DNA from: a virus
Direction: 5' to 3' (one strand)
DNA length: 64,000 nucleotides
Virus record (IMG/VR): IMGVR_UViG_3300021442_000250
Coordinates: 1 to 64,000 of that record
Shown: piece by piece, positions 23,205 through 41,844 of the stretch
Numbering within the stretch: position 1 is the first letter of the stretch
Layout of the letters: each line of letters opens with the position of its first letter
Position numbers and translations under genes: made by a program
Notes under the pieces: generated by a model
The model's input: the letters and a program-made list of their open reading frames with translations, nothing else
Databases searched by the model: none
Told to the model about the DNA's origin: nothing

Positions 23205-26200
23205 ATGGCAGATTTTAAAATAGATAGAATACGTTTTAAATGGAAAGGTGACTGGCTAGCTGGCACTCAGTACGTTAAAGATGATATCGTAAGATATGGT
23301 GCAAAAGTTTATACTTGCGTGGAAGTCCACTTCGCTGACTCCAATTTTTATAATGACTTAGATAACGCTACACCAAGATGGTCTCAAATGATGGACGGTC
23401 AGTCTTGGACTGGAAACTGGCAACCTAATAAATTTTATAAAATAGGTGAAATAGCAAAAGTTGGTGCAACACTTTATAAAGTTACTCAAGGTCACTTATC
23501 AAATGCAGATGCAAATAATGGAATATTAGGTGATGAATCTAAATGGGAATACTTTGCAAGAGGTGAAAAATGGACATCTATTTGGCAACCTAGTACACTT
23601 TATAGTGTAGGTGAAACAGTTGTTTATGGTGGATCAGTTTGGAGATGCGTTTCAGCACACACATCATCTACAGCGGTAGCTGGATTAGAATCTCATCAAG
23701 CTAATTGGATACAATATCATAGATCAGACAATTACAGAGGCTATTGGACACCTAACACAAGATATTATCCAGATGATATTGCAAGATATGGTGGTACAGT
23801 TTATAGAGCTTTATCTGGACATACTTCTGCTCCACATGATAGTTGGACAGGATTTACATCAGCAGATTATTCTACAAATTCTGCCAATGGTGCAGGTGCA
23901 ATTTTAAATATTTTCAAAGTTGATTCAACTTTTTATGCAAAATTTACAAATACAGGAACAAACTTTTCTGCTACAAATACTATTACTTTAGTAGGTAGTA
24001 AAGTTGGCGGTAATGATGGTGCAAATGATCTAGTAATAACAATTAGTACCGTAGATGGTAGCGGAGCAATTTCTACTTTTACTGTAAATGGTACAGCGGT
24101 TGCTGGAACTAATGGTTTAGAAGCCGATCAAGCTAAATGGCAAACAGTAATTGAAGGTATAGATTATATAGGCCATTGGGCAGAAGGAACAAAATATAAT
24201 AAAGGTTCATTAGTATCTTGGAGTCCGGGAATTTGGAAAGTAACAACTGATCACTGGTCAACAACTCCACACATGAATGAAACTAATTTTTCATTGTGGG
24301 TACCAGGTGCAGAATATGAAGGTTCTTGGGATTCTAATACATATTATCAAAAAGGTGATGTTGTACAATTTGGTGGATACAGTTATTCTGCTTTATTAAG
24401 CAATACAAATATTCAACCAGGTGTAACAGATAGTACAAATACTTGGGAATTATTAGCCGCAGGTTATAACCATCGTGGTGAATGGGATAGTACAGCTTCA
24501 TATAAAACTGGAGATATAGTTAGAGCAGGTGGTAATTTATTCATAGCAGTACAAGTTAACACAAATCAAGATCCAATTACAACTTTTGTTTATGATCCAG
24601 GTAGTGATGCTCCTGATCCTTGGCAATTATTAGTAACAGGTAAAGCATTTAAAGGTCCTTGGAAAGAAAGTGATACTAATGGAGCAATTACTTACTATGT
24701 AGGTGATGTAGTTACAGAAAAAGCAGACTTATATGCTTGTATAGAAACTCATGTTGCAACTTCTTCAGATGCTAAACCAACTTTAGACGAAGAAAGTGAC
24801 GAGGTTGGACCACTTTGGATTAGATTGGCACAAGGTGCTACAGGTAACATATTAGAAATAGATGGAGATTTAAAATCTCATTCTGGATCTGACGCAACAA
24901 GAATTGCAATAGGAACTTTTGGACAATTATTCAAAGTTAATGACGCTAATGATTATGGAATATGGGGAGATCATGATGTAGTTGCTAAAGTATTTTATGT
25001 TTCACCTTATGGAACAGATACACTAACAAGTGGTAAAAGTGTTGCAGGTCCATTTAGAACAATCAAATATGCTTGTGATTTTGTTCAACAAGATTTGGCA
25101 AATAGAACACCAGCTACTATAATTGTTAAAACAGGTGTTTATGAAGAAATTTTACCTATAACAGTTCCAGCAAAAGTTCATATTTGGGGAGACTTTACAA
25201 GACGTGGTGCAAACGTTAGACCTAAAACAGGTTACGAAGGAACAGATATGTGGCGTTTACGTGATGCAACAGGACTTGCAAATATAACAATGCAAGGTTT
25301 AACTGGTTCTTTAGGTTCTGAAAATCAATATGGAACAAAAAGACCAACAGGTGGAGCATATGTTTCTTTAGATCCAGGAAGTGGACCAGGTGATGGAACA
25401 GTTTGGATTACTTCTAAATCTCCTTATATTAAAAATTGTTCAATATTTGGGACAGGTTGTACAGGATTAAAAGTAGATGGTGACTTACATAATGGCGGAT
25501 ATAAATCTTTTGTTGCAAATGATTGTACACACTTTATTGAAAATGGTGTTGCGGCTTGGGTTAATGGAGATGCTAGAGTAGAATTTGTTTCAGTATTTGC
25601 TTATTGGGCCCATATAGGATATCTAGCAACAGCTGGTGGAAAATTTAGAGCAACAAATGGTAACTGTTCATATGGAGATTTTGGTGCAGTTGCAGAAGGA
25701 CTTTTAGCAAGTGAAAGTCCTTTAACAGGAAAAGTTAATAACCAATCACAAGAAGCACACATAGACAAAGTATATAATGATGAAAATGAAATTTTTGCTT
25801 TTGCTTTTGATCACGCTGGACAAAATTATACTTCAGCAAGTATAACAATTTCAGGATCAGGTGAAGGTGCGGCAGGAGCCATACGTTGGCCACAAATAAG
25901 AAATGGTGCAGTAAACAAAATTAGAGTTACAGGTAATAATGATTCTACAACACCAGGTGGTACAAATTATACCGAAGTATTAGGAAATGCTCAAATTGGT
26001 ACAAGTAAAGAAATTACGTTAGCACCTCAATATGCCGGAACAACAAATAATACTGTTGGACAAAGAATTTATATTTGGGAAGGTGCAGGTAGAGGACAAT
26101 ACGGATATATTTCTGGTTACAATTCTACAACAAAAGTTGCAACTGTTAAAAAAGAATTTGACGATACAGATGGTTGGCAACACTTCATGGGTGGTTACCC

Positions 26201-28358
26201 AATTGAAAGAATATTAGATGCATCTACAAAATATTCAATAGAACCTAGAATTACTATTTCTCCTACAGCTGGAAGTAGAAGTAATGTTAGCTATGGTTCA
26301 ACAGGAGAAATGCTATTAGGTGCTTCAGGAAAAATTGGAGCATCGGATATTACAACTGTAATAGGAAATGGTGTAGGTAATAGAACTACTGATGGTACAA
26401 GTTGGCTTGCCGCAGGTGGTATTCCTTCTAAAGATTGGAATAGTATTACTAAAACAAATAATTATTTTATAGCAACCGCGGCTGATGGAACAGTAATTAG
26501 ATCAGCTGATGGACAAAACTGGACAGATATTAGTGCAAATATTCCTTCAGATGTATTAAGAGCATCTGCTTGGGACGTTACTGAAGAAATTTTAATTATA
26601 GCATCTGAAACAGGAATGATATACAGATCAACAGATGAAGGTGCTACATTTAATTCAATTCAAGTTGAACTTTATGATGGTTCAACTCAAGTGTTTACAC
26701 AACTTGCTTGTGGTAATGGATTATTCATAGCCGCAAATGCATCAGGACAAACTTGGGAAAGTATGGGTGGTGGAACAACTTGGACTAAAGCCTCTAATAT
26801 GGGTGACTTTTTAATGGATACTAATTCTGGTTTACAAACAGTTCATAGATATAATTTGAAAAAATTAATGTTTGGTGGTGGTAAATTTATCGCATCAGTA
26901 CAAGATGCACCTGGTGATGAAAGTACAGTTGCTAATAAATTTTTAATATCAAATGCTAACGCGGCACAATCACAAACGTCATCTTCTTATAGTTGGTCAG
27001 AAAGTGATACGCCTCCACACGCAGGACCATATAATGATGTTGCATATTCTCAAGGAGTTTATGTTGCAATAACTGATGGTGGTGACCATGCATATAGTTT
27101 TGATGCATTTTCTTGGAAACAATTAGATTCAGCATTGGCAGGATCTTATAATGGTATAGTAGCTGGAAGAAATTCTACAGGCGGATACTTTATTCCATTA
27201 CGAACTGGTTCTCAGTCTGGTGCAGAAAAAATTCTAAAAGGTGCTACACCTTTAGCTAAAGTAGTTACAAATTCTTCAGCAATTAATAATATACAAATTT
27301 TAGATCCAGGTAGTGGATATTCTTCAGAACCTACAGTTACTATTACTGATAATTTAAACACTGCTGACGCAACATTTAAATCATTTGTACATAATGGAGT
27401 ACTTTCTCAACCAGAATTTACAAACAGAGGTACAGGATTTATAAATGTAACTGCAACTTTAAGTGGTGATGGTTTTGCAGATGAATATCAAACTGGAAGT
27501 TATTTAGAAGTTAAAGAAATGACAGGCAAACCAGGACCAGGAGCAATTTTATATATAGATGGAATTGATGACCAAGTTTATAGAATTACTCAGATTAATA
27601 AAATAACAGGAAGTTCTCCAAACATTGCCGCTCAGTTTAGAGTAACACCTAAAATAAAAGCAAATGAATCACCTGCTAATGATATAGCTATAACAATAAG
27701 AGAAAAATATTCTCAAGTTAGATTAACAGGTCATGATTTCTTAGATGTTGGAACTGGTAATAAATCTACAACTAATTATCCAGGTTTATACACTAGTGGT
27801 TATACACCAGGTTATGAACTTAAACAACGAAATGAAACAGTATCAAATGGAGGTGGAAGAGTATTTTATACTTCTACTGACCAAGATGGAAATTACAGAG
27901 TTGGAGAATTATTTGAAGTAGAACAGGCAACTGGAATAGTAACTCTAAATGCTGATTTATTTGACTTATCAGGTTTAACTGAATTAAGTTTGGGTGGAAT
28001 TGTAATAGGTGGAACTGAAGTTAGAATTGAAGAATTTAGTACTGATGGAACAATGGCGGCTAATAGTGATAGTGTTATTCCAACACAAAGAGCTATTTCT
28101 TTATACATAGGTTCTAAAGTTTCTGGCGGTGGAGCAAATCTTTCAACAAATGAAGTAAGAGCAGGACAAATTAAATTAAGAAATACAGAAATATTTAATG
28201 AAGCATATCCTACAAATGGAAAAGTTGTATTTTCTGGAGCGGTTTCTATAGCGTCTGTAAGTGGTAGTATCGTAGCAACTTCGTACTTTTTAGGGGCAGG
28301 ACCGGCTGAATTTTTAAATGAAGGTGGACCTGAAAGAGACGCATTATATGGTGAATAA
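23205..28358 (+). CDS. giant tail fibre with eight CBM-like repeats, beta-helix and propeller
   Basis: 1717 residues. Eight N-terminal repeats of about 50-55 residues (1-540), pattern FxWKGxWxxxTxYxxDDIVRYG then xVYxCxxxH, resemble chitin/cellulose-binding (CBM5/12-like) modules. Repeat 4 is interrupted by an inserted module (about 229-301). A parallel beta-helix follows (FYVSPYGTDTLTSGKS ... TGVYEEILPITVPAKV ... GTKRPTGGAYVSLDPGSGPG). At about nt 26380-27240 is a BNR/Asp-box-like propeller segment (RSADGQNW, RSTDEGATF, SMGGGTTW, SFDAFSW). The C-terminal domain (YSQVRLTGHDFLDVGTGN ... DQDGNYRVGELFEVEQATG ... STDGTMAANSDSVIPTQRA) is shared with the next gene. Probably a host-recognition fibre; catalysis not shown. 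Confidence 0.72.
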   Translation: MADFKIDRIRFKWKGDWLAGTQYVKDDIVRYGAKVYTCVEVHFADSNFYNDLDNATPRWSQMMDGQSWTGNWQPNKFYKIGEIAKVGATLYKVTQGHLSNADANNGILGDESKWEYFARGEKWTSIWQPSTLYSVGETVVYGGSVWRCVSAHTSSTAVAGLESHQANWIQYHRSDNYRGYWTPNTRYYPDDIARYGGTVYRALSGHTSAPHDSWTGFTSADYSTNSANGAGAILNIFKVDSTFYAKFTNTGTNFSATNTITLVGSKVGGNDGANDLVITISTVDGSGAISTFTVNGTAVAGTNGLEADQAKWQTVIEGIDYIGHWAEGTKYNKGSLVSWSPGIWKVTTDHWSTTPHMNETNFSLWVPGAEYEGSWDSNTYYQKGDVVQFGGYSYSALLSNTNIQPGVTDSTNTWELLAAGYNHRGEWDSTASYKTGDIVRAGGNLFIAVQVNTNQDPITTFVYDPGSDAPDPWQLLVTGKAFKGPWKESDTNGAITYYVGDVVTEKADLYACIETHVATSSDAKPTLDEESDEVGPLWIRLAQGATGNILEIDGDLKSHSGSDATRIAIGTFGQLFKVNDANDYGIWGDHDVVAKVFYVSPYGTDTLTSGKSVAGPFRTIKYACDFVQQDLANRTPATIIVKTGVYEEILPITVPAKVHIWGDFTRRGANVRPKTGYEGTDMWRLRDATGLANITMQGLTGSLGSENQYGTKRPTGGAYVSLDPGSGPGDGTVWITSKSPYIKNCSIFGTGCTGLKVDGDLHNGGYKSFVANDCTHFIENGVAAWVNGDARVEFVSVFAYWAHIGYLATAGGKFRATNGNCSYGDFGAVAEGLLASESPLTGKVNNQSQEAHIDKVYNDENEIFAFAFDHAGQNYTSASITISGSGEGAAGAIRWPQIRNGAVNKIRVTGNNDSTTPGGTNYTEVLGNAQIGTSKEITLAPQYAGTTNNTVGQRIYIWEGAGRGQYGYISGYNSTTKVATVKKEFDDTDGWQHFMGGYPIERILDASTKYSIEPRITISPTAGSRSNVSYGSTGEMLLGASGKIGASDITTVIGNGVGNRTTDGTSWLAAGGIPSKDWNSITKTNNYFIATAADGTVIRSADGQNWTDISANIPSDVLRASAWDVTEEILIIASETGMIYRSTDEGATFNSIQVELYDGSTQVFTQLACGNGLFIAANASGQTWESMGGGTTWTKASNMGDFLMDTNSGLQTVHRYNLKKLMFGGGKFIASVQDAPGDESTVANKFLISNANAAQSQTSSSYSWSESDTPPHAGPYNDVAYSQGVYVAITDGGDHAYSFDAFSWKQLDSALAGSYNGIVAGRNSTGGYFIPLRTGSQSGAEKILKGATPLAKVVTNSSAINNIQILDPGSGYSSEPTVTITDNLNTADATFKSFVHNGVLSQPEFTNRGTGFINVTATLSGDGFADEYQTGSYLEVKEMTGKPGPGAILYIDGIDDQVYRITQINKITGSSPNIAAQFRVTPKIKANESPANDIAITIREKYSQVRLTGHDFLDVGTGNKSTTNYPGLYTSGYTPGYELKQRNETVSNGGGRVFYTSTDQDGNYRVGELFEVEQATGIVTLNADLFDLSGLTELSLGGIVIGGTEVRIEEFSTDGTMAANSDSVIPTQRAISLYIGSKVSGGGANLSTNEVRAGQIKLRNTEIFNEAYPTNGKVVFSGAVSIASVSGSIVATSYFLGAGPAEFLNEGGPERDALYGE

Positions 28359-28406: not shown

Positions 28407-31400
28407 ATGGCTGAGTTTAAACTAGGTAGAATTAAGTTTGTTTGGAAAGGTTCCTGGGCAACTACTACAACTTATTATGTTGATGACGTAATAAGATATG
28501 GTGGTAGAACTTACAATTGCGTAACTAATCACACATCTGGTACATTTCAAACTGATTTAGGTGCTGTAAAATGGCAACTAATGTCAGATGGTATAGAGTG
28601 GAAAAGTGAGTGGGTTGCAAATACAACTTATAAACCAAATGATGTAGTAAAATACGGTGGTTACATTTATCTTGCTAACACTGGACATACCTCAGCGGCA
28701 ACAGAAGCTTTAGGATTAGAAGCTGATCAATCTAAATGGGATTTATTCATAGAAGGTTTTGATTGGAAATCTGATTGGACAATTTCTACAAGATATAAGA
28801 AAAACGATTTAGTAAAATATGGTGGTTCAGTTTATCTTTGTATAACAGAACACACATCAGATAACACAACAGCAGTTGGTCTAGAAGGTCAACAAGCTAA
28901 ATGGGAAATTTTTGGAAAAGGTTTTGTTTGGTCAGGCGACTGGGCAATCAATTCTAGATATAAAGTTAATGACACCGTTAGATATGGTGGACAAATTTAC
29001 GTTGCTATAACTGGACATACTTCAGCGGCAACTGAAGCAGATGGTTTAGAAGCCAACCAAGGACAATGGCAAGCCTTACACAAAGGAATTGAATTCAAAG
29101 GTGACCATGCAACAGCAACAAGATATAAAGTAAATGATGTTGTAAAATATGGTGCAAACATTTGGATTTGTATAACACAACATACATCATCAGGAATTTT
29201 ATCAGCCGACGAAGCAAAATGGAATGTTTTAATTCCAGGTATTGAATTTGAAGATACTTGGAGCAACTCTACAAATTATCAACCAGGTGACTTTGTTACT
29301 TACGGTGGATATAGTTATGTTGCAGATAGAAATAATATTAATAAACTTCCACCTGATGAATCAGACGACTGGACTTTATTCGTAACAGGATTTAATTTAA
29401 GAGGTGACTATAATGGCGCAACTGCATACAAACAAGGTGACGTTGTTAGAGTTGGCGGTTTCACTTACCTTGCAATTGCAGATACTACAGGTAATAGACC
29501 ACCTAATGTAACTAAATGGGACAAACTTAACGAAGGTTTATATTGGAAAGGTGCTTGGACAAATGCAACTGACTATGACAAAGGAGATATAGTAAGAGGT
29601 ACAACAAACACTACTACAAGTTATCTTTGTATAACAGAAAACACATCAAATAATGTTGGTCCATCAACAATTAATCAACCAGACTATCCACCAGGAGCAG
29701 GTGTTGATACTAGTGCATGGCAATTATTGTCAGGTGGAGCAGAAACTACTGTATTATCTACAAAAGGTGACATTTTAATTTATGGTCAATCAGGTCCAGC
29801 AAGATTACCAATTGGTAAAGCAGGACAAACTTTAGTTGTAAACTCAGCAGGTGACTTACCTGAATGGGGATACTTTGGTTCAATCGATCAAGTTTATTAT
29901 GTAGGACCTGCTGGACAAGACAAACCTTCTCCAGATGCAGGAACAACTCTTGATAAACCTTGGAAATCTTTAAGATATGCTTTACATGGCATTGAACAAG
30001 GACCAAGAAATCCTCAAGGAACTTATTTGTTAGAAAGAAACAAAGCATTCATTCAAGAAGAAACTTTAGCTTGGATTAATGCACAAATTTCAGGAAATAC
30101 TTCACCATTTACAAATGCTTACACATACGACGCTGTTAAATGTAGAAGAGATGCAGGATTTATGTTAGATGCACTTTTATATGATTTAAGACATGGTGGA
30201 AATGAAAAATCAAGATATGCAACAATTAAAATTTCAACTCAAACTGAATTTGCAAATCATAAAGATGAATTAACAGCTTATCTTAATAGATTAGTTTATA
30301 TTTCACAACAAGTTGTAGCCAATAATGCAGGCTACTCTGCTTTACAAGCCACAGTTCCTCATTATATTAATAATGATTATGTATCTGAAGCGGCTGTATC
30401 AGGTGAAATTGCAAGTTATGTAAAAATTGCAACAGATTGTCTTGCGGCAGGAAATATAGCAGGAGTACCTGCAGAAGAAGTTCCACAAACTACATTGTTT
30501 GCTAAAAGCGGAACATATGAAGAAGTATTACCTCTTTCAGTTAAAAAAGGATTAGCAATTGTAGGAGATGAATTAAGATCAACAATTGTTAAACCAGCAG
30601 GTCAAGTTACAGGTTCAAGCGATACAGTATTCACTTTAGCAGGTATTGGAAGAATGCAGGCTATTATATCTGATATAGTTACAAATGCTTCTGTAACACC
30701 AACACCAGTAGGCGGAGTTATATCTTTTACAACACCAGCACCAGATTTAGGTTTTGTTAACGGAACTTATACTAACGTTGCATTAACAGGTGGTAGTGGT
30801 TCTGGATGTACAATGGATGTAACTGTATTATCATACACAATTACATCTCTTACTATTAATAATCCAGGACAAAATTATGCAATTAATGATAACTTAACAA
30901 TTCCAGCGGCAACAATTGGTGCAGATGGTATAACAGTAGTTGGTAGTATTACAACAGGAAATAATTTAACACAAAATACATCCAACCCAGCAGGTTCAGG
31001 TGCGGCAGGAACAGCGGCGGCGGCAATTGCACAAAATATTTACGATCATATAGATTTCAAAGTTAATGCAAATGGAGCCGATCCAACATTAACAGGTACA
31101 AATACTGCTCAAGCAGATGCAGGTTATTCAGATGCAAGATTAAGATTATTAGCAAATATGGATTTTGTTGCATTAGAAGTTGCAGAATTTGTACAAAGAG
31201 CAAATCCATCTCATAGTAACTTTAAAACTAAATGTTTGGCAGATGTTAAAATTTATCTTCAAGCAATTATGGATGACTTACAATATACTGGAAATTACAA
31301 ATCATTAAAAGCATCAGATGCCTATATTAATTCTAGACTTTCTACTGGTTCAAGTGCAAGTGATATGTTCTATTGCAGAAATGCAACTGGAATTAGAAAT

Positions 31401-34400
31401 ATGACAGTTCAAGGTTTAATAGGAACATTAGGAACAGATCAATATAGCACATCAGCGGCAACATATACACCTGCAACAGGAGAAATGGTATTAACTATAG
31501 GAAGCCATAGTATTCCTGTAGGGGAATCTGTTATGATTGCATCAAATAGTTTAACATTTACTTGTGCTGAAGATAGTCATGCTACTCAACATAGCTATCC
31601 AAGATCATCTGATCCTTATTACAATAAAGCAATTTTAATTACGGCTGTAGCCGCAACAACAATTACAGTAAACGTTGGTATATCAAGTAATACAACAGCA
31701 CATACTTTTGTAAATGCTACTGAGGAAAATGTAACATTAGCTTCTGCAAATGAATTTGGTACAAAAAGACCAACAGGTGGTTCTTTTGTATCATTAGATC
31801 CAGGCTGGGGACCAACACACGAAGAAGTATGGATTACTTCTAAATCACCTTATATTCAAAACGTAACAACATTCGGAACAGGATGTACTGGATTAAAAGT
31901 AGACGGTGCATTACACGATGGTGGTTTTGATTCTGTTGTTGCAAATGACTTTACGCAATTATGCGATGATGGTATAGGTGCATGGATTACAAATTTAGGT
32001 AGAGTAGAACTTGTATCAGTATTTTCTTATTACGCACACATTGGTTATCTATCAGAAAATGGTGGAAAACTTCGTGCTACAAACGGTAACTCATCTTATG
32101 GAGATTTTGGTTGCGTGGCAGAAGGAGTTGATTCAGCAGAAACTCCTACAACAGCAACAATTGATAACCATAGTGAAGATGCAGATGTTGCCAATGTAAT
32201 GACAGACGGTCAAGGAATATTAGCATTTGAATATAAAAATGCTGGAAGACAATATTCTAGTGCTACACTTTCTATATCAGGAGATGGTTATGGAATTACA
32301 GGAGAAACTCCAACTTATAATACTGGTGGTGTTTATAAAATTAGATTATTAGAAACTAATACAGTAACAAGTAACCTTGGTGGTGCGACATATATGTCTG
32401 CTACTAACAATGGACAAACAGGTTCAGCTACACAAATTACAATAGCTAACGCAGATAGTAATGCCAGTGGTGCATACACAGGTATGGCAATTTGGATTAC
32501 AAAAGGTAAAGGAGTTGGTCAATACGCATATATTGATGCTTATGATTCTGCAAGTAAAGTCGCAACTGTTAAAAAATATTCAGATGGTTTAGCAGGTTGG
32601 GAAAGACTTGGCGGATTATCAGTTGAAACTCTTTTAGATGCTACAACAGAATATACTATAGAACCTAGAGTAGTTATTGGTGCTCCACAAAACGATGGAA
32701 GTACAACAGTTAGACAAGCAGTTGCAAGAGCAATTGTAACTTCTGAAAAGATTTCTTCAATAAGAATTATAGATTGTGGTGCAAGTTATACTTCAGCACC
32801 AACAGTAACATTTACTGATCCTAATAATACTATAGATGCTCCAGTACAATCATTCATAGATGATGGTGTATTAGGTCAACCTACTTTCTCTGCATATGGA
32901 ACAGCTTATGATACTGCAAGTGTAACAATTACAGAATCACCTACAGGTAAAAACATAACAGGTATTACACAAGGAACTGTTGCTGTTGTTACATCAGCAG
33001 GACACAATTTAGTTTCAGGAACTAAAGTAACGTTTACAGGTGTTGTTGGAATGACAGAATTAAACACTGGTGTATGGTATTACATTAAAACATTAACAGT
33101 AGACACATTTGGAGTTTACACTAATGATGATTTAACTGCTGGATTAAACACTACAAACTTTACAGCATATAGTTCAGGTGGAGTTGCAACACCACAAGGT
33201 GGATTTAGAGATGAATTCCAAACAGGAAGATATATTCAAGTAGAAGGTATGTCAGATGTTCCACAAACAGGATCAAATGTAGAATTTGATGGAATTTCAA
33301 CTACAACATATCCTTATGCATATACACTTTTAACTGCAAACAAAGAATACATGAAAGATGAAGTAATAGCATGGTTTAATACAACTTATCCAGGAATACA
33401 CAACGCCGCTCAAAATACTAAATGCGAAAGAGATGTTGGATATGAAATTGATGCAATGGCATTCGATATAAAATATGGTGGTAATACAGAAACTATAAGA
33501 ATTGCTAAAGCATACTGGCAAGGTGTTACTTCTCAATTAGCGGCAGGCGAACAAGTATACGCAGTTGCAGTTAATAATAAATTAAAAGAAATGATTAATG
33601 ATTACATTATGGATAATGTAGCCTGGTCAACAACACAAAGTCCAGTCGTTACATCACAAACAACTAATTCTAATAATGGTGAGTTAGGTGTAAAAGACAA
33701 ATTTACAAATTTAACTAAAACTTTAAATGATGTAATTGAAAATGGTTTAACTTCTGTACCAACTACACAAGGATTAAACAATCCTTACTTTAAATTAGTA
33801 AGTGTACAAAAATTACGAGGTACTCAAGCACCATATTCAGCATTATTACAAATTAGTCCACAGATGTCAACAGCTCAAGCTCTAGCACATGGTACTGGGA
33901 TAACAGTTAAACTTAGATATTCTCAAGTTAGATTAACAGGACATGACTTCTTAGATGTAGGAACTGGTAATCAAGCATTGACAAATTATCCTGGAACGCC
34001 AAACAGAACTAACGATCAAGAAAGAGAAAGTGTTGAAAGAGGTGGTGGTAGAGTATTCTTTACTGCAACTGATCAAGACGGTAACTTTAGAGTTGGTGAC
34101 TTGTTCTCAGTACAACAGGCGACTGGTATTGCATCATTAAATGCAGATGCATTTAACATTTCAGGATTACAAGAACTTCAGTTAGGAGATTTAACATTAG
34201 GTGGAACTTCTGCCTCTGTTAACGAATTCTCTACTGACGGTACATTTGCGGCAAATAGTGACAAAATTGTACCAACACAAAGAGCGATAAGAACATATGT
34301 TTCTTCACAAATTGGTGGCGGAGCAAGTGCAATTAACGTAAATACTATTACTGCTGGTCAAATTGTGATCACAGCTAATACTATAAATACAACAACAGGT

Positions 34401-34487
34401 GCAAGTATTCAAATAAATAGTGGTGTGCAATTCAAGAAAGGTGTTGCAGGAGCACCACTGGCAATGAATTACTTGATACATAGTTAA
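28407..34487 (+). CDS. giant tail fibre, paralogue of the 23205 fibre with inserted modules
   Basis: 2026 residues. Same plan as the preceding gene: eight CBM-like repeats (about 1-445), beta-helix (VYYVGPAGQDKPSPDAG ... SGTYEEVLPLSVKKGL ... GTKRPTGGSFVSLDPGWGP), then the shared C-terminal domain (YSQVRLTGHDFLDVGTGN ... DQDGNFRVGDLFSVQQATG). It is longer because of in-frame additions: helical modules (NKAFIQEETLAWINAQ ... CRRDAGFMLDALLYDLRHGG and NKEYMKDEVIAWFN ... CERDVGYEIDAMAFDIKYGG), a mixed module near nt 30660-31340, and one YTP repeat at 31443-31752. It lacks the propeller of its neighbour. Binding of host surface glycans is inferred from the repeats. Confidence 0.72.
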   Translation: MAEFKLGRIKFVWKGSWATTTTYYVDDVIRYGGRTYNCVTNHTSGTFQTDLGAVKWQLMSDGIEWKSEWVANTTYKPNDVVKYGGYIYLANTGHTSAATEALGLEADQSKWDLFIEGFDWKSDWTISTRYKKNDLVKYGGSVYLCITEHTSDNTTAVGLEGQQAKWEIFGKGFVWSGDWAINSRYKVNDTVRYGGQIYVAITGHTSAATEADGLEANQGQWQALHKGIEFKGDHATATRYKVNDVVKYGANIWICITQHTSSGILSADEAKWNVLIPGIEFEDTWSNSTNYQPGDFVTYGGYSYVADRNNINKLPPDESDDWTLFVTGFNLRGDYNGATAYKQGDVVRVGGFTYLAIADTTGNRPPNVTKWDKLNEGLYWKGAWTNATDYDKGDIVRGTTNTTTSYLCITENTSNNVGPSTINQPDYPPGAGVDTSAWQLLSGGAETTVLSTKGDILIYGQSGPARLPIGKAGQTLVVNSAGDLPEWGYFGSIDQVYYVGPAGQDKPSPDAGTTLDKPWKSLRYALHGIEQGPRNPQGTYLLERNKAFIQEETLAWINAQISGNTSPFTNAYTYDAVKCRRDAGFMLDALLYDLRHGGNEKSRYATIKISTQTEFANHKDELTAYLNRLVYISQQVVANNAGYSALQATVPHYINNDYVSEAAVSGEIASYVKIATDCLAAGNIAGVPAEEVPQTTLFAKSGTYEEVLPLSVKKGLAIVGDELRSTIVKPAGQVTGSSDTVFTLAGIGRMQAIISDIVTNASVTPTPVGGVISFTTPAPDLGFVNGTYTNVALTGGSGSGCTMDVTVLSYTITSLTINNPGQNYAINDNLTIPAATIGADGITVVGSITTGNNLTQNTSNPAGSGAAGTAAAAIAQNIYDHIDFKVNANGADPTLTGTNTAQADAGYSDARLRLLANMDFVALEVAEFVQRANPSHSNFKTKCLADVKIYLQAIMDDLQYTGNYKSLKASDAYINSRLSTGSSASDMFYCRNATGIRNMTVQGLIGTLGTDQYSTSAATYTPATGEMVLTIGSHSIPVGESVMIASNSLTFTCAEDSHATQHSYPRSSDPYYNKAILITAVAATTITVNVGISSNTTAHTFVNATEENVTLASANEFGTKRPTGGSFVSLDPGWGPTHEEVWITSKSPYIQNVTTFGTGCTGLKVDGALHDGGFDSVVANDFTQLCDDGIGAWITNLGRVELVSVFSYYAHIGYLSENGGKLRATNGNSSYGDFGCVAEGVDSAETPTTATIDNHSEDADVANVMTDGQGILAFEYKNAGRQYSSATLSISGDGYGITGETPTYNTGGVYKIRLLETNTVTSNLGGATYMSATNNGQTGSATQITIANADSNASGAYTGMAIWITKGKGVGQYAYIDAYDSASKVATVKKYSDGLAGWERLGGLSVETLLDATTEYTIEPRVVIGAPQNDGSTTVRQAVARAIVTSEKISSIRIIDCGASYTSAPTVTFTDPNNTIDAPVQSFIDDGVLGQPTFSAYGTAYDTASVTITESPTGKNITGITQGTVAVVTSAGHNLVSGTKVTFTGVVGMTELNTGVWYYIKTLTVDTFGVYTNDDLTAGLNTTNFTAYSSGGVATPQGGFRDEFQTGRYIQVEGMSDVPQTGSNVEFDGISTTTYPYAYTLLTANKEYMKDEVIAWFNTTYPGIHNAAQNTKCERDVGYEIDAMAFDIKYGGNTETIRIAKAYWQGVTSQLAAGEQVYAVAVNNKLKEMINDYIMDNVAWSTTQSPVVTSQTTNSNNGELGVKDKFTNLTKTLNDVIENGLTSVPTTQGLNNPYFKLVSVQKLRGTQAPYSALLQISPQMSTAQALAHGTGITVKLRYSQVRLTGHDFLDVGTGNQALTNYPGTPNRTNDQERESVERGGGRVFFTATDQDGNFRVGDLFSVQQATGIASLNADAFNISGLQELQLGDLTLGGTSASVNEFSTDGTFAANSDKIVPTQRAIRTYVSSQIGGGASAINVNTITAGQIVITANTINTTTGASIQINSGVQFKKGVAGAPLAMNYLIHS
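31443..31752 (+). repeat. YTP/TFTC domain repeat inserted in beta-helix
   Basis: One copy of the repeat described at 20977-22422. In the paralogous fibre (23205) the flanks GSLG-xxQ and YGTKRPTGG are contiguous; here GTLGTDQ and EFGTKRPTGG are separated by this copy, so it is an insertion. Confidence 0.85.
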
Positions 34488-34523: not shown

Positions 34524-34841
34524 ATGGCTTCAGGAAGATTAGGTAAAGCAGACTTGGTAGCCAGTACCGATACCGTAGTTTACACGGTCCCTGCGGCGAC
34601 TTTTACCGTAGCTACTGTGTCTATCTGCAACAGAGGTAACCAAGTAGTCACTATCAAAATGGCAGTGGCAGATGCGGCAACTCCAGACGCTTCAGAATAC
34701 GTTGAACATAACGTTGAAATTCTGTCAGCAGGAGTTTTAGAACGTTCAGGTTTAGTGATGTCAGCTGGTCAAAAACTAGTTGTATGGTCATCAGGGGCTA
34801 ACGTAGCCGCGGTTGCAATGGGTATTGAAACTGGAATATAG
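34524..34841 (+). CDS. small beta-sandwich virion protein (family A, copy 3)
   Basis: 105 residues, beta-rich, no Cys except one in ATVSICNRGN. Order of features as in the 11623 and 19420 proteins: VVYTVPAATFTVATVSICN, a mid-chain VEHNVEILSAG, SAGQKLVVWSS, and a hydrophobic end. Strong purine-rich ribosome site AAAAAGGAGATAAA upstream. Codon usage is less AT-rich than in the giant fibre upstream, which together with the strong site suggests a highly expressed structural protein. Confidence 0.55.
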   Translation: MASGRLGKADLVASTDTVVYTVPAATFTVATVSICNRGNQVVTIKMAVADAATPDASEYVEHNVEILSAGVLERSGLVMSAGQKLVVWSSGANVAAVAMGIETGI

Positions 34842-34903: not shown

Positions 34904-35236
34904 ATGGGAAGATATATTTCAACAACTGGAACTGCTGGAGTAGTAACAAAAGAAGTTTCTACTACTTACAGTGCCGCTGTTAATGATAGAATTCTTGCTG
35001 ATTCTACTGGTGGAGCATTTACAATTACTCTACCATTAAGTACAGGTTTGTTAGTCAATGATACAATACAACTTATTGACGCAACATCTCAAGCAGGAAC
35101 TAATAACATAACAGTTGGAAGAAATGGTGCTCTTATCCAAGGTTCAGCAGAAGATTTAACTGTCGATTTAGCAGGTGCTATCATGACATTAATCTATACT
35201 GGTGCGACTTATGGATGGATAGTAGGTGCTGTATAA
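34904..35236 (+). CDS. small fibre-type beta protein
   Basis: 110 residues. Sequence type (DSTGGAFTITLPLSTGLLVN, IQLIDATSQAGTNNITVGRN, then a terminal LIYTGATYGWIVGAV) matches the short beta-prism or knob segments common in phage tail fibres, in which GG(A/T)FTITLP is a recurring strand motif. No signal or membrane segment. Own late promoter. The 63 bases after it hold only an AT hairpin and the ribosome site of the Cys-rich gene that follows. Confidence 0.6.
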   Translation: MGRYISTTGTAGVVTKEVSTTYSAAVNDRILADSTGGAFTITLPLSTGLLVNDTIQLIDATSQAGTNNITVGRNGALIQGSAEDLTVDLAGAIMTLIYTGATYGWIVGAV

Positions 35237-35299: not shown

Positions 35300-36280
35300 A
35301 TGCCAGCAACAAGTCTAAGAGGATTATTGGGAACTAAACAAGACACGTTTGTCGCGTTCGGTGAAGAAAATCTTGAGAAAGGCAGAATATATGTTTACAC
35401 TCAAGGAGCAAACTATTCGAGATTATGGTGCGGATTTTGTTTTCACCCAGGAGTGGCAGGAACGGCTACGATAGAAGTTTGGGGAGCTGGCGGTAGTGGC
35501 GCAAAAATGTGCTGTTGCGGTTTTGGCTTACCAGGTAATTCTGCGGCATACGCCAAAAGAACTATATCATTAGCGGCTAATGGTTATGTTTGCGGATGTA
35601 CTGGTCAATCATGTGGTAATGGAGATACATTATGTCACAGAGGTTGCTCTGAACCAACTTTCATGAATATTTCCAAAGATGGCACAGCAGGTGGATGTAC
35701 TTGTATTTGTGCTCAAGGTGGAGCAGGTGGAGTTTCTTATTGTTCTACAAACGAATCATTTTATTGTTGTTATAAAGCAAACGGTTTTTGTATTACAAAA
35801 ACTGAAAACGATCACTGCGGTATTGTATGTAATATGTGTGATGGAAAACATATAGCTTCGGCATATTGCGGAAATGTAATGTGTCCAGGAAGAACTTCTT
35901 GTGTATCAGCATTTGGCTGTCACCCAAGTTGTCCTTGTCAATTTACTTGGCACAATCCAACTCCAGCAGGAATGTTTAGTGAAGACGGAGCATATATTAC
36001 TTACAATACAGAAAATGGTAATGGATTTTCAGAATGGTCAGGCAACGGAGGTCACCAATTAGAAGCGGCACTAGGTGCTGGAAGATTTCCAACTGGTGGA
36101 ATACCTTGGTCAACTTGCTGGGGAGCAAGTAAGGCTTGTAACTGTTATGAAGCAGATCCATGTATACCACACGTTCCAGTAGGAATGGGAGGTCACGGAC
36201 CAATGCCTTGTGATGGAGTAAGAGATCACGGTAACAGAGGTGGCCATGGTGGAGTTAGAATTAAATGGATAACAGCATAG
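35300..36280 (+). CDS. cysteine-rich, glycine-rich virion protein (copy 1 of 3)
   Basis: 326 residues with 31 Cys (about 9.5%), extraordinary for a phage protein. N-terminal EENLEKGRIYVYTQG, then IEVWGAGGSGAKMCCCGFGL, PGNSAAYAKR, many CxC and CC pairs (for example GGCTCICAQGG, FYCCYKANGFC, HPSCPCQF), and a C-terminus DGVRDHGNRGGHGGVRIKWI. The WGAGGSG start and GGHGGVRI end resemble glycine-rich tail fibre tips. Three such genes stand in tandem with similar Cys positions. The Cys could form a metal-binding or disulfide lattice; there is no signal peptide, so oxidation would occur after assembly or release. Confidence 0.65.
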   Translation: MPATSLRGLLGTKQDTFVAFGEENLEKGRIYVYTQGANYSRLWCGFCFHPGVAGTATIEVWGAGGSGAKMCCCGFGLPGNSAAYAKRTISLAANGYVCGCTGQSCGNGDTLCHRGCSEPTFMNISKDGTAGGCTCICAQGGAGGVSYCSTNESFYCCYKANGFCITKTENDHCGIVCNMCDGKHIASAYCGNVMCPGRTSCVSAFGCHPSCPCQFTWHNPTPAGMFSEDGAYITYNTENGNGFSEWSGNGGHQLEAALGAGRFPTGGIPWSTCWGASKACNCYEADPCIPHVPVGMGGHGPMPCDGVRDHGNRGGHGGVRIKWITA

Positions 36281-36288
36281 GATAAATT

Positions 36289-37293
36289 ATGGCATCATTA
36301 ACAACATTATTGCAAACAAAATATGATGGGATAGCGGCTGGAGAAACTAACCTGGAAAAAGGTACAATTTATACTTTTTATCCTGCCAACGATTATACAA
36401 ACTTCCAATGTCACATATGTTGGAAACCACCTGCCAACGGTACAGCACAATTAGAAGTGTGGGGAGCGGCTGGATCAGGTGCAGAAATGTGTTGTTGCGG
36501 TGGAGGATTACCAGGTAACCCAGGCGGTTATGCTAAAAAACAACTAGCGGCTTTTGGTGCAAGTTGGACAGATTGTTTTGTTTGTTCAGTTATTGGTTTA
36601 TCATGCGGTAACTCAGATACTTTAAGTCACAGAGGACGTTCAGAACCAACTCAAGTTTGTTGGTTTGCCAACGACGCAGATGGATGTATTTGTTCTGAAG
36701 GTGGACAAGGAGGATGTTCTATTTGTTCTACTGGTAATGCATTGTATTGTTGTTTTGTAGCACAAAATTATTGTCATACACAAGGTGGAAGCACTTATTG
36801 TGGAATAATTTGTAATTATAGAGATGATGGTGGAAACAGTTATGACGGTGCAGATTATTGTGCATTTGCTTATGGCGGAGATGTAAACTGTTATGGTGGA
36901 TTTAGTTGTCATTACTTTAGAGGATGTCAACCAAACTGTAACTGTAGATATATTACAGTAATTAAAGTTCCACCTGGAATGGTTTCAGAGTGCGGTGGAG
37001 AAGTTCAGTACGCACAAGATGAAGATAGTGAAAAAGTTTATCACTCAGGTTCAGGCGGAATTATGGGAGTTATGGAACCACTTAATTTAATGACAAGACA
37101 ACCAACTCAAGGTTCACCTTATAATGCTTGTTGGACAGGTAATGACTCTTGTGGTTGTTATGATTTCCAAGGATGTACTCACTTCTTTCCAGGAGGAATA
37201 CCAGGACAAGGACCAACACCGTGCGATGGATATAGAGATCACGCATGGAGAGGTGGAAACGGAATATTAAGGATTAAATTTATAGCTTCATAA
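36289..37293 (+). CDS. cysteine-rich, glycine-rich virion protein (copy 2 of 3)
   Basis: 334 residues, 30 Cys. Conserved with its neighbours: ETNLEKGTIYTFYPA, LEVWGAAGSGAEMCCCGGGL, PGNPGGYAKKQ, a SCGNSDTLSHRG block, ALYCCFVAQNYC, NCNCRY, SCGCYDFQGC and the end PCDGYRDHAWRGGNGILRIK. Most Cys positions are kept among the copies while the residues between them vary, which argues for structural selection on the Cys. Starts eight bases after copy 1, preceded by a GATAAATT sequence. Confidence 0.65.
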   Translation: MASLTTLLQTKYDGIAAGETNLEKGTIYTFYPANDYTNFQCHICWKPPANGTAQLEVWGAAGSGAEMCCCGGGLPGNPGGYAKKQLAAFGASWTDCFVCSVIGLSCGNSDTLSHRGRSEPTQVCWFANDADGCICSEGGQGGCSICSTGNALYCCFVAQNYCHTQGGSTYCGIICNYRDDGGNSYDGADYCAFAYGGDVNCYGGFSCHYFRGCQPNCNCRYITVIKVPPGMVSECGGEVQYAQDEDSEKVYHSGSGGIMGVMEPLNLMTRQPTQGSPYNACWTGNDSCGCYDFQGCTHFFPGGIPGQGPTPCDGYRDHAWRGGNGILRIKFIAS

Positions 37294-37308
37294 GGAGTAA
37301 ATAGTATT

Positions 37309-38280
37309 ATGGCATCATTAAAATCAATATTGACAACAAGACAACCGGCAAGTATGTCAGAAGATAACCTAGAAAAAGGTTACATTTATGCATATTCTCC
37401 GGGTACTCAGTTTGCCAATTTTTGTAATGGTGTTTGTTGGACAGCCCTTGCAGATGGAAAAGCTATTATAGAAATTTGGGGAGCTGGTGGATCTGGTTCT
37501 CGTATGTGTTGTTGCGGAGATGGATTACCAGGTAATGCAGGAGCATATTCTAAAAAAACAATTCAAGTTAATCAAGGTGATACGTTGACAGGTACTTTAG
37601 GAATGGCTTGTAATGCTCACCCACTATGTCACGTAGGATGTAGTGATCCAACTCAAATATGTTATATAACAACTACTGCAAGTACGCATGGTTGTATGTG
37701 TGCAAGAGGTGGATATGGTGGAAAATCTATGTGTACAACTGGTACATCTTTCTACTGTTGTTACAATGCAGAAGGTTTTTGTACTGTAAGATGTAACAAT
37801 GATAATTGTGGAATGACTTGTAACTGGTGTAATGGTGCATGGGAAGCCTTAGCATATGGTGGAGATATAAATTGTTGTGGAGAAATTGGCTGTACTAGTT
37901 GGTTCGGCTGTTGCCCTCACTGTAAATGTTTCTTCCAAAGACACGCTCCTGTACCTTCAGGACTTTTTGCAGAAAATGGAGCATTAATTACGTTCCAAAC
38001 AGAATCAGATGGAACACCTATGTCGCAATGGTCAGGTAACCAATTATTCCAATATTATGCGGCTCTTAATTTGGCTACTAAATCACCAAGACAAGGTAAC
38101 CCAAGATCTTATTGTTGGAGATCAGACAGATCTTGCGGTTGTTATGAATCACAAGGATGTGCTAATTTCTTACCAACAGGATCAGGTGGACTACCACCAA
38201 ATGCTTGTCCAGAAGTTAGAGACCATGGAATCCGTGGAGGACACGGAGGAGTTAGAATTAAGTTTATAGCTTCGGCATAA
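37309..38280 (+). CDS. cysteine-rich, glycine-rich virion protein (copy 3 of 3)
   Basis: 323 residues, 31 Cys. EDNLEKGYIYAYSPG, IEIWGAGGSGSRMCCCGDGL, PGNAGAYSKK, FYCCYNAEGFC, GCCPHCKCFF, SCGCYESQGCANF and a C-terminus RDHGIRGGHGGVRIKFIA. Closest to copy 1 in its ends. It follows copy 2 by 15 bases that include AGTAAATA, a late-promoter variant (37296-37303). The function of the trio is unknown; a stabilised fibre tip or metal-binding virion surface is possible. Confidence 0.65.
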   Translation: MASLKSILTTRQPASMSEDNLEKGYIYAYSPGTQFANFCNGVCWTALADGKAIIEIWGAGGSGSRMCCCGDGLPGNAGAYSKKTIQVNQGDTLTGTLGMACNAHPLCHVGCSDPTQICYITTTASTHGCMCARGGYGGKSMCTTGTSFYCCYNAEGFCTVRCNNDNCGMTCNWCNGAWEALAYGGDINCCGEIGCTSWFGCCPHCKCFFQRHAPVPSGLFAENGALITFQTESDGTPMSQWSGNQLFQYYAALNLATKSPRQGNPRSYCWRSDRSCGCYESQGCANFLPTGSGGLPPNACPEVRDHGIRGGHGGVRIKFIASA

Positions 38281-38326: not shown

Positions 38327-38980
38327 ATGATAACAACAGCGTTTAACATAGCATTACCAAATAAACCATACGTGGACAACTTTTCAGATAATACTGTTCA
38401 TGGTTCAAATTATGTTGGTTTTAAATTTATTAAAGTAATAGTAGATGCTAATGGCTGGGTAGTAAATGCAGTTTCAGAAGCTGATACTATGGATGAAATA
38501 AACGCTCAAGCTAGTCCAGTTCCAGCAGGTTGCAGTGCAGTTGTAGTAGACGGTTCAGCAAATCCTTTTGAAGCGGCTTTTATTACAGGAAGATATACAA
38601 CTGGTGCAGTTGCGGCTTATGAAGAATCATTAGGAACAAATGATGCTAACGGTGACCCAGAAGTTTGGACATATACTTGGGGAGAAGATGGCGTTTTAAA
38701 CCAAATTTATTTACATGGTACATTGAAATACGTAGACGGGGCTTTCGTTGCGCCACAAATGAGAACACACGCACTAACTAGACAAATGTTCTTAGATTCA
38801 TTAGCACCTATGTCACAAGGTTTAACAGACGCTCTTACGGCAGATGATGCAAATACTGTTTATACAGCGGCTGAAAGACAAGCAATTGTTGATCATAAAA
38901 CATACGTAGACAATATTTCTACAAAATATGCGGCAGTTGACCATTGGAAGATTCCATTCTTACCAATGCCTAAAATATAA
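38327..38980 (+). CDS. fibre-cluster protein, possible assembly factor
   Basis: 217 residues. N-terminal part (1-60) has beta strands around VGFKFIKVIVDANGWVVNAV; the middle is mixed; the C-terminal third is helical (LTADDANTVYTAAERQAIVD, HKTYVDNISTKYAAV) and ends DHWKIPFLPMPKI. An ending of helix plus (W)xxPxxP is seen in tail fibre assembly chaperones, which would fit a gene following fibre genes, but the rest does not clearly match. It could equally be a structural protein. Own late promoter. Confidence 0.45.
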   Translation: MITTAFNIALPNKPYVDNFSDNTVHGSNYVGFKFIKVIVDANGWVVNAVSEADTMDEINAQASPVPAGCSAVVVDGSANPFEAAFITGRYTTGAVAAYEESLGTNDANGDPEVWTYTWGEDGVLNQIYLHGTLKYVDGAFVAPQMRTHALTRQMFLDSLAPMSQGLTDALTADDANTVYTAAERQAIVDHKTYVDNISTKYAAVDHWKIPFLPMPKI

Positions 38981-39062: not shown

Positions 39063-40040
39063 ATGACTGAAAATAATCCTATAACAAGACCAAAAGCATT
39101 TTTTTTAAATGGGGGAATGGGTAGAATTATCTGTGCTATTCCGGCCCTTGAAAAATACTATGAAGAATCTATCGACAAAGATTTTATAATAGTAGTAGAA
39201 GGTATTCAAAATATTTTAGATGGTCATCCTACATTAGATTCTAAAACATTTGACTATGGTCATAAAAATTTATTCCACACTAAACTTGTAAAAATGGATG
39301 TGGTAAGTTTAGAACCATATAGAATATGGGAATATTATAATCAAAAATGTAATATAACTCAAGCGTTTGATATTTTAATTAATAATAAAGGTGTTAGAGA
39401 ATTACCTAAACCTACAATTAATTTAAGTCAAGAAGAATTACTTGCAGGAAAAAAAGCAGTTAAAGATATTAAAGATAAACTTAAAAAAGAAAAAGTAATT
39501 GTTTTACAACCTTTTGGACGAGGGATTCAACAAATAGACAATAGTTTTGTAGATAAAACTTGTCGAAGTATGGAATTTAAAAATATAAAAAACTTAATAA
39601 GAAAATTACAAGCAGAAGATTATGCAATTATATTAATGGCAGAATTTGGAATTGATTTAAAAGGTGAAAAATATCCAGATGAAATAGCAATGCCTGAAGG
39701 AATTGACTTAAGAAAATGGTTAGCAATTATAAAAAATAGTGATCATTTTTTAGGTTGTGATAGTGTAGGTCAACATTTAGCCTATATAGGTGAAACAGAT
39801 GCAACAGTAGTAACTGGTGCAACGTTCCCAGTTAATACATCATATCCTAAAACAAAAGGAATTAATATTATAGATATGGGACAAATAGATAGAGAATATG
39901 ATCCAATAAGAATAACAAACGATGAACAAGTTAGTAGACATAATGAAAAATTAATGTGGATGACAGATGAAGTAGAAAATTATATTATAAATGTTGTATT
40001 AGGAAAACAAAAAATTGACGAGGAAGATAAAGATGAGTAA
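39063..40040 (+). CDS. GT9-like glycosyltransferase (copy 1)
   Basis: 325 residues. Start FFLNGGMGRIICAIPALEKY resembles the gGxGDxxxxxPxLxxL start of GT9 (heptosyltransferase-type, GT-B) enzymes; the second half has VIVLQPFGRGI and HFLGCDSVGQHLAYIG, corresponding to the donor-side PG...D(S/T)xxxHxA region of that family. It is shorter than bacterial heptosyltransferases (about 320-350, so only slightly) and has an acidic C-terminus EEDKDE. Paralogue of the 41831 gene. The two flank a carbamoyltransferase, with an eight-base overlap here. Likely transfers a sugar, perhaps a heptose made by the 52.9-56 kb cassette; donor specificity is inferred only. Confidence 0.55.
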   Translation: MTENNPITRPKAFFLNGGMGRIICAIPALEKYYEESIDKDFIIVVEGIQNILDGHPTLDSKTFDYGHKNLFHTKLVKMDVVSLEPYRIWEYYNQKCNITQAFDILINNKGVRELPKPTINLSQEELLAGKKAVKDIKDKLKKEKVIVLQPFGRGIQQIDNSFVDKTCRSMEFKNIKNLIRKLQAEDYAIILMAEFGIDLKGEKYPDEIAMPEGIDLRKWLAIIKNSDHFLGCDSVGQHLAYIGETDATVVTGATFPVNTSYPKTKGINIIDMGQIDREYDPIRITNDEQVSRHNEKLMWMTDEVENYIINVVLGKQKIDEEDKDE

Positions 40041-41844
40041 ATCAGGTTATATTGCGGCAATAGCCAGAGGACATAATGCAGGTATATGTCTATTAAAAGA
40101 TGGAGAAATTGTTTTTGCAATAGAAGAAGAAAGATTATCTAGACACAAATACGATGGTGGTCCATATCGTTCAATGATGGAAATATTAAAATATACGGAC
40201 AAAATAGATTATCTAGTTGTAGCTCATACACAACCATTAGATGATCCTACTACTGGTAAAGTTGATTATACTCATGATGATGTATACACAGGGTTAGCAA
40301 GAAAATTAGGTTTAATAGATAGAAAAGCAGATTTACAACAACACCCACAAGTAATTGACCTAAGTCATATCCATCATAAGTTACACGCCGGTTGTGCTTT
40401 TTATAGATCAGGATTTGATAAAGCCTGTTCAGTTATTGTTGATGGAGCAGGAACTTTTATGCCTGTTAATAATCAACTTACAGGAGATTTATGGATGTTT
40501 GAAATTGAATCTATTTTTGATTGCTCATATCCTAATAATATAACAACTGTATGGAAACATTACGGTACTGGTTCTGCATCTCCAGGAGCATTTATAAAAA
40601 AACATCCTTCAGATAAAATGGGAGAACCAGGTAAAACTCATGAATGTTTATTTTCAGATGTAGCAGGAATTGTTAAAGTTTATGAAGCAATTACTCAATA
40701 CTGTGGATTCTCTGCCATTGAAGCAGGAAAAACAATGGGATTATTTCCTTATGGAAAAGCTAATGATAGAATTCCTCCATTATTTCATGATGAAGTAAAA
40801 TATATGTCTTTGTCTAATAGACATTTAATAATTCCTACATATCCTAATGCGGCAATAGTAAATGAAGGCATTTATGATTACTTAGATGATACACCTGCAG
40901 ATTGTCCTGATGTTACTAAACTAGATAATAGAAGAGATTTAGCATATTCTTGTCAAACAGAAACTCAAGCAGAAGTTTTAAAATTAATTTATAAAGCTGT
41001 AGAAATGACAGGTCAAAAAAATGTTGTATTATCTGGTGGATATGGATTAAATTGTGTAGCAAATTATTGGTATCTTGAGTCTTTAAGAAAAGATGGAATT
41101 AATTTATTTGTTGAACCAGTATCAAATGACGCCGGAACAGCCATTGGAGCGGCTCTTTTATTTTATTATGGTATAACAGAAGATATGACAAAAAGACCAC
41201 TTACTACATTATGTCAAGGTCTAGAAAGAAAATATACATTAGAAGAAATAGAAAAATTAGCAAATAAATCAGGCATTGAATTAATGGACGCAAATGATAA
41301 AGATGTAGTTAAATTAATGATAGAAAAAAATATTATTTCTATGTTTCAAGGAAAATCAGAAAGTGGTCCAAGGGCATTAGGTAACAGAAGTATTTTATTT
41401 GATCCTACATTTAAAGATGGTAAAGATTTTGTTAATATAGTTAAACGTAGAGAATATTTTAGACCTTTTGCAGGATCTATATTACATGAACACGTACACG
41501 AATGGTTTGATTTAAGAGGAATGGAAGAAAGTCCTTATATGATGTATGCTGTAAATTGTCAAGAAGGAATAGCAGAAAAAATTCCTAGTATTATACACGT
41601 AGATGGTACTTGTAGAATACAAACAGTTAAAGAAGAACAAAATCCATTGTATTATAAATTAATTAAAGAGTTTTATAATCAAACAAAAATACCAATTGTG
41701 TTTAATACGTCATTTAATTTGGCTGGAGAACCACTTGTAGAAACATTAGAAGACGCTATATGGACTCTTGAAGAATCTCTTTTAGAATATTTGTATCTTC
41801 CAGAATATGGAAAAATGTTAAAGGTGAAAAATGTCAAGAAATAG
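40033..41844 (+). CDS. carbamoyltransferase, NodU/CmcH family
   Basis: 603 residues from the ATG at 40033 (a TTG at 40015 is in frame, but the ATG overlapping the previous stop as ATGAGTAA is more plausible). NodU-type enzymes use carbamoyl phosphate and ATP to O-carbamoylate sugars or antibiotics. N-terminal Kae1-like domain: AIARGHNAGICLLKDG, EEERLSRHK, HIHHKLHAGCAFY (metal His) and VDGAGTF. C-terminal domain: SESGPRALGNRSILFDP, RREYFRPFAGSIL, NTSFNLAGEPLVET. All family landmarks are present, so probably active. Between two glycosyltransferase-like genes it would decorate the same glycan. Homologues are known in marine T4-like phages. Confidence 0.85.
   Translation: MSKSGYIAAIARGHNAGICLLKDGEIVFAIEEERLSRHKYDGGPYRSMMEILKYTDKIDYLVVAHTQPLDDPTTGKVDYTHDDVYTGLARKLGLIDRKADLQQHPQVIDLSHIHHKLHAGCAFYRSGFDKACSVIVDGAGTFMPVNNQLTGDLWMFEIESIFDCSYPNNITTVWKHYGTGSASPGAFIKKHPSDKMGEPGKTHECLFSDVAGIVKVYEAITQYCGFSAIEAGKTMGLFPYGKANDRIPPLFHDEVKYMSLSNRHLIIPTYPNAAIVNEGIYDYLDDTPADCPDVTKLDNRRDLAYSCQTETQAEVLKLIYKAVEMTGQKNVVLSGGYGLNCVANYWYLESLRKDGINLFVEPVSNDAGTAIGAALLFYYGITEDMTKRPLTTLCQGLERKYTLEEIEKLANKSGIELMDANDKDVVKLMIEKNIISMFQGKSESGPRALGNRSILFDPTFKDGKDFVNIVKRREYFRPFAGSILHEHVHEWFDLRGMEESPYMMYAVNCQEGIAEKIPSIIHVDGTCRIQTVKEEQNPLYYKLIKEFYNQTKIPIVFNTSFNLAGEPLVETLEDAIWTLEESLLEYLYLPEYGKMLKVKNVKK

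Follow-up and report, generated by a model that had tools for sequence, protein, structure and literature searches.

What do three adjacent genes that encode proteins dense in cysteine contribute to a virus, and why are there three of them? The question is raised by a locus in a 64,000-nucleotide stretch of DNA (positions 1 to 64,000 of IMG/VR record IMGVR_UViG_3300021442_000250; hereafter, the window), which belongs to a virus record of 88,030 bases. This marine, jumbo-type phage has T4-like proteins for its portal, major head, and baseplate wedge; the major head protein is nearest (65–69%) to those of jumbo phages including PA5oct, Vibrio 2.275.O, Sinorhizobium Phosso, and Serratia BF; contigs with related arrays reach 364 kb. 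We favour, with moderate confidence, a reading in which the three proteins (A, B, and C) are receptor-binding subunits of a fibre tip—probably joined as an A:B:C heterotrimer, served by one chaperone, and hardened by their cysteines.

Three cysteine-rich genes and their relatives

An earlier note on this DNA, made from the sequence alone, had described three tandem open reading frames with 30–31 cysteines each and had called a cysteine content of about 9–10% extreme. Both statements are borne out (Table 1): cysteine makes up 9.5% of A, 9.0% of B, and 9.6% of C, compared with 0.55% across the remaining forward structural genes of the window (87 cysteines in 15,879 aa; maximum no higher than 2%), and at that 0.55% background the binomial probability of at least 30 cysteines in 326 aa is about 7e-27. 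Identity to copy A (copy 1) is 44–49%, and the cysteine motifs that the note had picked out as conserved among diverged copies are invariant across all three—CCC after WGA(A/G)GSG, YCC, and C(N/G)C (280/282)—as is CxC (211/213).

Table 1 Features of the fibre cassette in the window
Feature	Coordinates	Strand	Basis and remarks
Long fibre protein (1717 aa)	23205..28358	+	phrog_9851 tail fiber, E 8e-178; kept upstream of the Cys genes
Long fibre protein (2026 aa), candidate for the shaft that bears the tip	28407..34487	+	phrog_9851 tail fiber, E 8e-194; kept upstream
Small conserved protein (105 aa)	34524..34841	+	phrog_11338 tail fiber protein, E 1e-9; position shared with S-CAM1, S-CAM3, P-SSM2, and window-type phages
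Small conserved protein (110 aa)	34904..35236	+	Segment matches to phage tail/tailspike families; position shared with S-CAM1, S-CAM3, and window-type phages
Putative Cys-rich TNF-like/glycine-rich tip paralogue A (326 aa, 31 Cys)	35300..36280	+	phrog_4205, E 1e-10
Putative Cys-rich tip paralogue B (334 aa, 30 Cys)	36289..37293	+	phrog_4205, E 1e-7
Putative Cys-rich tip paralogue C (323 aa, 31 Cys), the copy modelled	37309..38280	+	phrog_4205, E 4e-16
Candidate fibre-assembly chaperone (217 aa; N-terminal beta-sandwich, C-terminal helical hairpin)	38327..38980	+	Position, HH homology, model

Scans of IMG/VR returned 77, then 78 loci of the cysteine-rich family. Among 153 distinct relatives, cysteine is the residue type with the highest conservation, with about 23 cysteine columns invariant or nearly so (at least 92%); the earlier note had named a lack of such conservation in homologues as one finding that would count against it. 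Around 10 of these positions recur in three other, far more distant lineages, which we term the S-CAM, S-SSM7, and P-SSM2 types. Cultured cyanophages carry related cysteine-rich genes in the same kind of cassette: S-CAM1 (36/31/25 cysteines per copy), S-CAM3 (36/35/24), S-SSM7 (29/28/30), Sf-FS3 (28/28/25), and P-SSM2, which has two copies (36/36). All of these proteins are annotated as hypothetical.

The sole sequence-library match for A, B, and C was PHROG 4205, a family of unknown function, and a profile search of the PDB returned no sequence relatives of the cysteine family. A tblastn search with the window copies against 50,697 phage records gave no match; a relative from a phage with a split array, used as the query, led to S-CAM1 and P-SSM2, so the blank with the window copies does not reflect a true absence. 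Our literature search found neither a published function for PHROG 4205 or the cyanophage cysteine-rich proteins nor any cysteine-rich phage tip. Virion proteomes mentioned in papers belong to other cyanophages (S-SM1, S-PM2, Syn9, S-SCSM1, and S-CREM2), and the glycine-rich proteins of the Syn9 fibre region are not cysteine-rich; at that Syn9 locus (L357, with gp36, gp38, and gp39), gp39 apparently contains a repeat of a gp38-like domain. The only match in bacterial or archaeal genome collections, L188 (PAOW01000006.1), comes from a metagenome-assembled genome labelled Euryarchaeota that probably holds a binned phage contig, and we did not accept it as host evidence.

Predicted fold and fibre cassette

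We modelled copy C as a monomer with AlphaFold2 from a 40-row alignment and placed A and B by homology. The model (pLDDT 77, pTM 0.77) is weak at residues 11–21, 234–238, and 265–278, and begins with a short, low-confidence helix (residues 4–9); P-SSM2-type copies have a longer N-terminal segment. Its best structural match was the fibre protein gp24 of cyanophage Pam3 (7ypx, Z 16.1; 7yfw, Z 15.6; over about 200 residues). Next came the tail tip of Bxb1 (Z 12.1), then ALK/LTK, matched in their TNF-like and glycine-rich domains (Z 8–9.4), and below these, weakly, C1q/TNF domains. Relatives from S-CAM1 and S-SSM7 score above the cut-off of the Pfam family Gly_rich_2 (PF21722), which window copy C (E 0.67) and the best window-type member (0.0036) do not reach. 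On this model, A, B, and C are each predicted to be a TNF-like beta-sandwich carrying a glycine-rich lattice, and 24 of the 31 cysteines of copy C sit in the glycine-rich insert.

Pam3 gp24 is a trimeric fibre tip built from the same pair of TNF-like and glycine-rich domains, with gp25 as its chaperone (PMC9608196). It differs from the proteins described here in being a homotrimer encoded by one gene rather than three paralogues, in its longer N-terminal helical domain, and in chemistry—the Pam3 paper (PMC9608196) mentions no cysteine or disulfide, compared with 30–31 cysteines per copy in the window. ALK and LTK share the two-domain fold in their extracellular parts, a likeness of fold only, as these are animal receptor kinases. 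The long-tail-fibre adhesin gp38 of T4-like phages (S16, PP01) is also a separate gene for a glycine-rich receptor-binding tip, although a single one, and we know of no cysteine-rich lattice in it. Where the TNF-like middle domain would be, gp38 has a beta-helix (PMC9608196). We regard the cysteine-rich variant of the TNF-like/glycine-rich tip, which is not described in the papers that we found, as a real and strongly conserved feature.

The genes stand in a conserved order: two long fibre genes, the 105-aa and 110-aa proteins, the cysteine-rich genes, the ~217-aa protein, a GT-like protein, and a Nol-like carbamoyltransferase. In window-type arrays not cut by contig ends, the 217-aa gene follows the last cysteine-rich gene. 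Similarly, one chaperone-like gene follows the three copies in 78/78 S-SSM7-type and 73/77 S-CAM-type loci and lies between the two copies in 54/56 P-type loci, such that it adjoins the cysteine-rich genes in almost all arrays and usually occurs once per set. Some window-type phages (L010, L011, L021, and others) have two such genes in tandem, the second of them diverged.

The model of the 217-aa protein is confident (pLDDT 96). Profile comparison shows it to be homologous to the corresponding proteins of the S-CAM, S-SSM7, and P-SSM2 lineages (HH probability 95.9–99.8%). The S-SSM7 and Sf-FS3 proteins score above cut-off against Pfam PF16778 (Phage_tail_APC; 1e-9 and 5e-11); the window's own protein has no Pfam match, PF16778 included. 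A PDB fold search with the model found no convincing kin and no match to gp25/Tfa, and Hsp70-lid-like helix hairpins were judged to be chance resemblances. The name chaperone thus draws on homology, architecture, and position, from which the protein is a candidate dedicated fibre-assembly chaperone. Together with the predicted fold and the conserved fibre cassette, this neighbour supports the fibre-tip reading that the earlier note had offered, and we consider the identity of A, B, and C as tip adhesins well supported.

Several genes nearby may act on the fibre or its target. Right after the chaperone-like gene (39063–42778), two similar proteins of ~320 aa, one of them a phrog_8954 match, lie on either side of the carbamoyltransferase; this enzyme, found downstream of the cysteine-rich genes in cyanophage lineages too, might serve fibre modification or host-glycan mimicry. 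Loci L196, L197, L198, and L194 (S-SSM7, S-CAM3, Sf-FS3, and P-SSM2) have 2OG-Fe(II)/prolyl 4-hydroxylase, cysteine dioxygenase, or cupin annotations downstream, for which fibre modification is again possible. In the window's fibre region, a 618-aa protein (43307–45163) contains a weak alpha/beta-hydrolase segment (Peptidase_S9-like, E 0.0017) and is perhaps, judging from this segment, a virion-borne esterase.

Copy number and descent of the trios

Copies were counted at the best-scoring loci of each scan, which are not an unbiased sample, with contig-cut arrays left out. On this basis, three copies were present in all uncut arrays of the S-CAM type (67/67) and the S-SSM7 type (42/42), while window-type arrays had three in tandem or a split arrangement of 1+2, about 22 kb apart; P-SSM2-type loci had exactly two. 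De-duplication of these best-scoring loci left 48, 55, and 36 distinct trios, 139 in all, in three lineages. In the split type, the lone copy lies between baseplate-wedge-like genes (L047, L050, L068, L071, and others) and the remaining pair stays in the fibre cassette. Whole split-type records (n = 7) total three copies, one of which, in G003, has an in-frame stop; these totals led us to reject an initial impression of phages with just one or two copies. An overly strict search motif had made five S-CAM-type arrays look two-copy; all of them have three, and the P-type locus L389, a single-copy candidate, contains a second, shorter cysteine-rich ORF.

Within window-type phages, copies 1, 2, and 3 group largely by position: copy A forms its own clade across phages as the first copy, and copy B sits in a second-copy clade from which three deep second copies are excluded. 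These position-wise clades indicate that the trio is old and its order kept. A tree spanning all lineages recovers the window-type copies as a single clade (support 100, stem 1.34), with the S-SSM7-type copies in a separate one (support 100, stem 1.28). AU tests that placed window copy A with S-CAM-type copies 1–3 or S-SSM7-type copies 1–2 rejected a single shared triplication (p <1e-28), and together with the separate clades this implies that the trios were triplicated or homogenised separately; gene conversion could imitate independent triplication. None of the possible correspondences of A, B, and C to the split-type copies was favoured by the tests (all p >0.2). In 28 diverse window-type genomes, distance matrices computed for A, B, and C are correlated (r 0.92); removal of two flanking genes leaves a correlation of 0.68–0.72. 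This co-divergence is tighter than that with any neighbour gene tested.

The earlier note had left the triplication open between alternative tips and a heterotrimer. If the trimer were mixed and obligate, one would predict a fixed number of copies, separate origins, and co-divergence, and the observed combination of these features argues, indirectly, for a heterotrimer of A, B, and C. On the other hand, the two copies of P-SSM2-type phages and the relocated split-type copy keep the heterotrimer from being firm. With two copies, a mixed trimer would have to be 2:1, or the copies would form separate homotrimers, and the relocated copy might serve another structure.

Phage fibre tips are generally known to be homotrimers or single caps, and large phages often carry several receptor-binding proteins (RBPs). 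As in multi-RBP phages, A, B, and C could form three separate homotrimeric tips, one paralogue per fibre or subset of fibres, with three receptor specificities. The prevalence of several RBPs in large phages, the baseplate-region location of the third split-type copy, the longer N-terminal segment that each P-SSM2-type copy has of its own, and the homotrimeric state of Pam3 gp24 (PMC9608196) all speak for this arrangement. We nonetheless think it rather unlikely: lineages that triplicated separately would not be expected to halt their RBP number at exactly three; the window-type array has no separate shaft gene for each copy and usually one chaperone per set; copies within a lineage have an N-terminal motif in common; and A, B, and C co-diverge tightly. 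The broader proposition is a phage counterpart of C1q: an obligate A:B:C heterotrimeric tip, laced with disulfides, that evolved repeatedly from tandem paralogues among marine T4-like phages and gives each fibre end three different binding faces. We put it forward tentatively, as somewhat short of an even prospect.

Cysteine chemistry and the proposed tip

Optional cysteines are gained or lost in matched pairs—164/207, 93/179, 51/94, and 96/193—although each pair represents a single event on one branch, and cysteine totals show no even or odd preference, per protein or per trio. These two limits leave room for metal binding. The same tip might hold Zn, Fe, or Cu through metallothionein-like CCC, CxC, and CC motifs in place of disulfides, a reading that fits the motif make-up, the lack of an even-cysteine preference, and synthesis in a reducing cytoplasm. 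We hold it to be unlikely, slightly more so than the separate homotrimers, as the exact pairing of optional cysteines, single events notwithstanding, is what disulfides predict, and the cysteines are scattered over the long glycine-rich insert and the C-terminal stretch, without one compact motif. The earlier note's disulfide-hardened or metal-loaded tip is plausible; the paired changes fit disulfides, but neither they nor cysteine parity decided between the two options.

A far less probable alternative—that the proteins sit on the head or another virion surface as decoration, or have no structural role—can draw on the wide occurrence of TNF/C1q-like folds among proteins and on the fact that fold and genome position are what lead us to infer that A, B, and C are virion proteins, but the top fold matches are phage fibre or tail-tip proteins and the genes sit in a fibre cassette with a homologue of tail-assembly chaperones.

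Returning to the heterotrimeric tip, we infer its place in the virion, its A:B:C stoichiometry, its binding of receptors, and the chemical state of its cysteines as follows. In this T4-like, jumbo-type phage, A, B, and C would form the distal receptor-binding tip of a tail fibre. Each subunit would comprise a beta-sandwich of the trimerising, TNF/C1q-like kind, preceded by a short N-terminal segment, and a glycine-rich lattice with exposed loops, packed with conserved cysteines. Most likely, one A, one B, and one C would assemble into a heterotrimeric fibre cap, their folding aided by the product of the neighbouring chaperone-like gene, and this mixed tip would present three distinct binding surfaces simultaneously. 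The proteins, synthesised in the cytoplasm with their cysteines reduced, would later have the lattice locked by those cysteines, most simply through disulfides that form, possibly between chains, once lysis has exposed them to oxygenated water. C1q offers a parallel from animal immunity, in which three neighbouring paralogous genes give an A:B:C heterotrimer with TNF/C1q-type heads on a collagen stalk; if the heterotrimer is right, the likeness would be one of working, and we claim no homology.

If true, the separate emergence, in several lineages, of a tip that mixes three paralogues would alter our view of the receptor recognition and host range of abundant marine phages, and would provide a clear case of paralogues turned into an obligate complex. 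The cysteine density also poses a chemical question, namely how a protein with 9–10% cysteine emerges from a reducing cytoplasm to become a rigid, exposed tip. As related cassettes are carried by the cultured phages S-CAM1, S-CAM3, S-SSM7, Sf-FS3, and P-SSM2, the reading is testable now.
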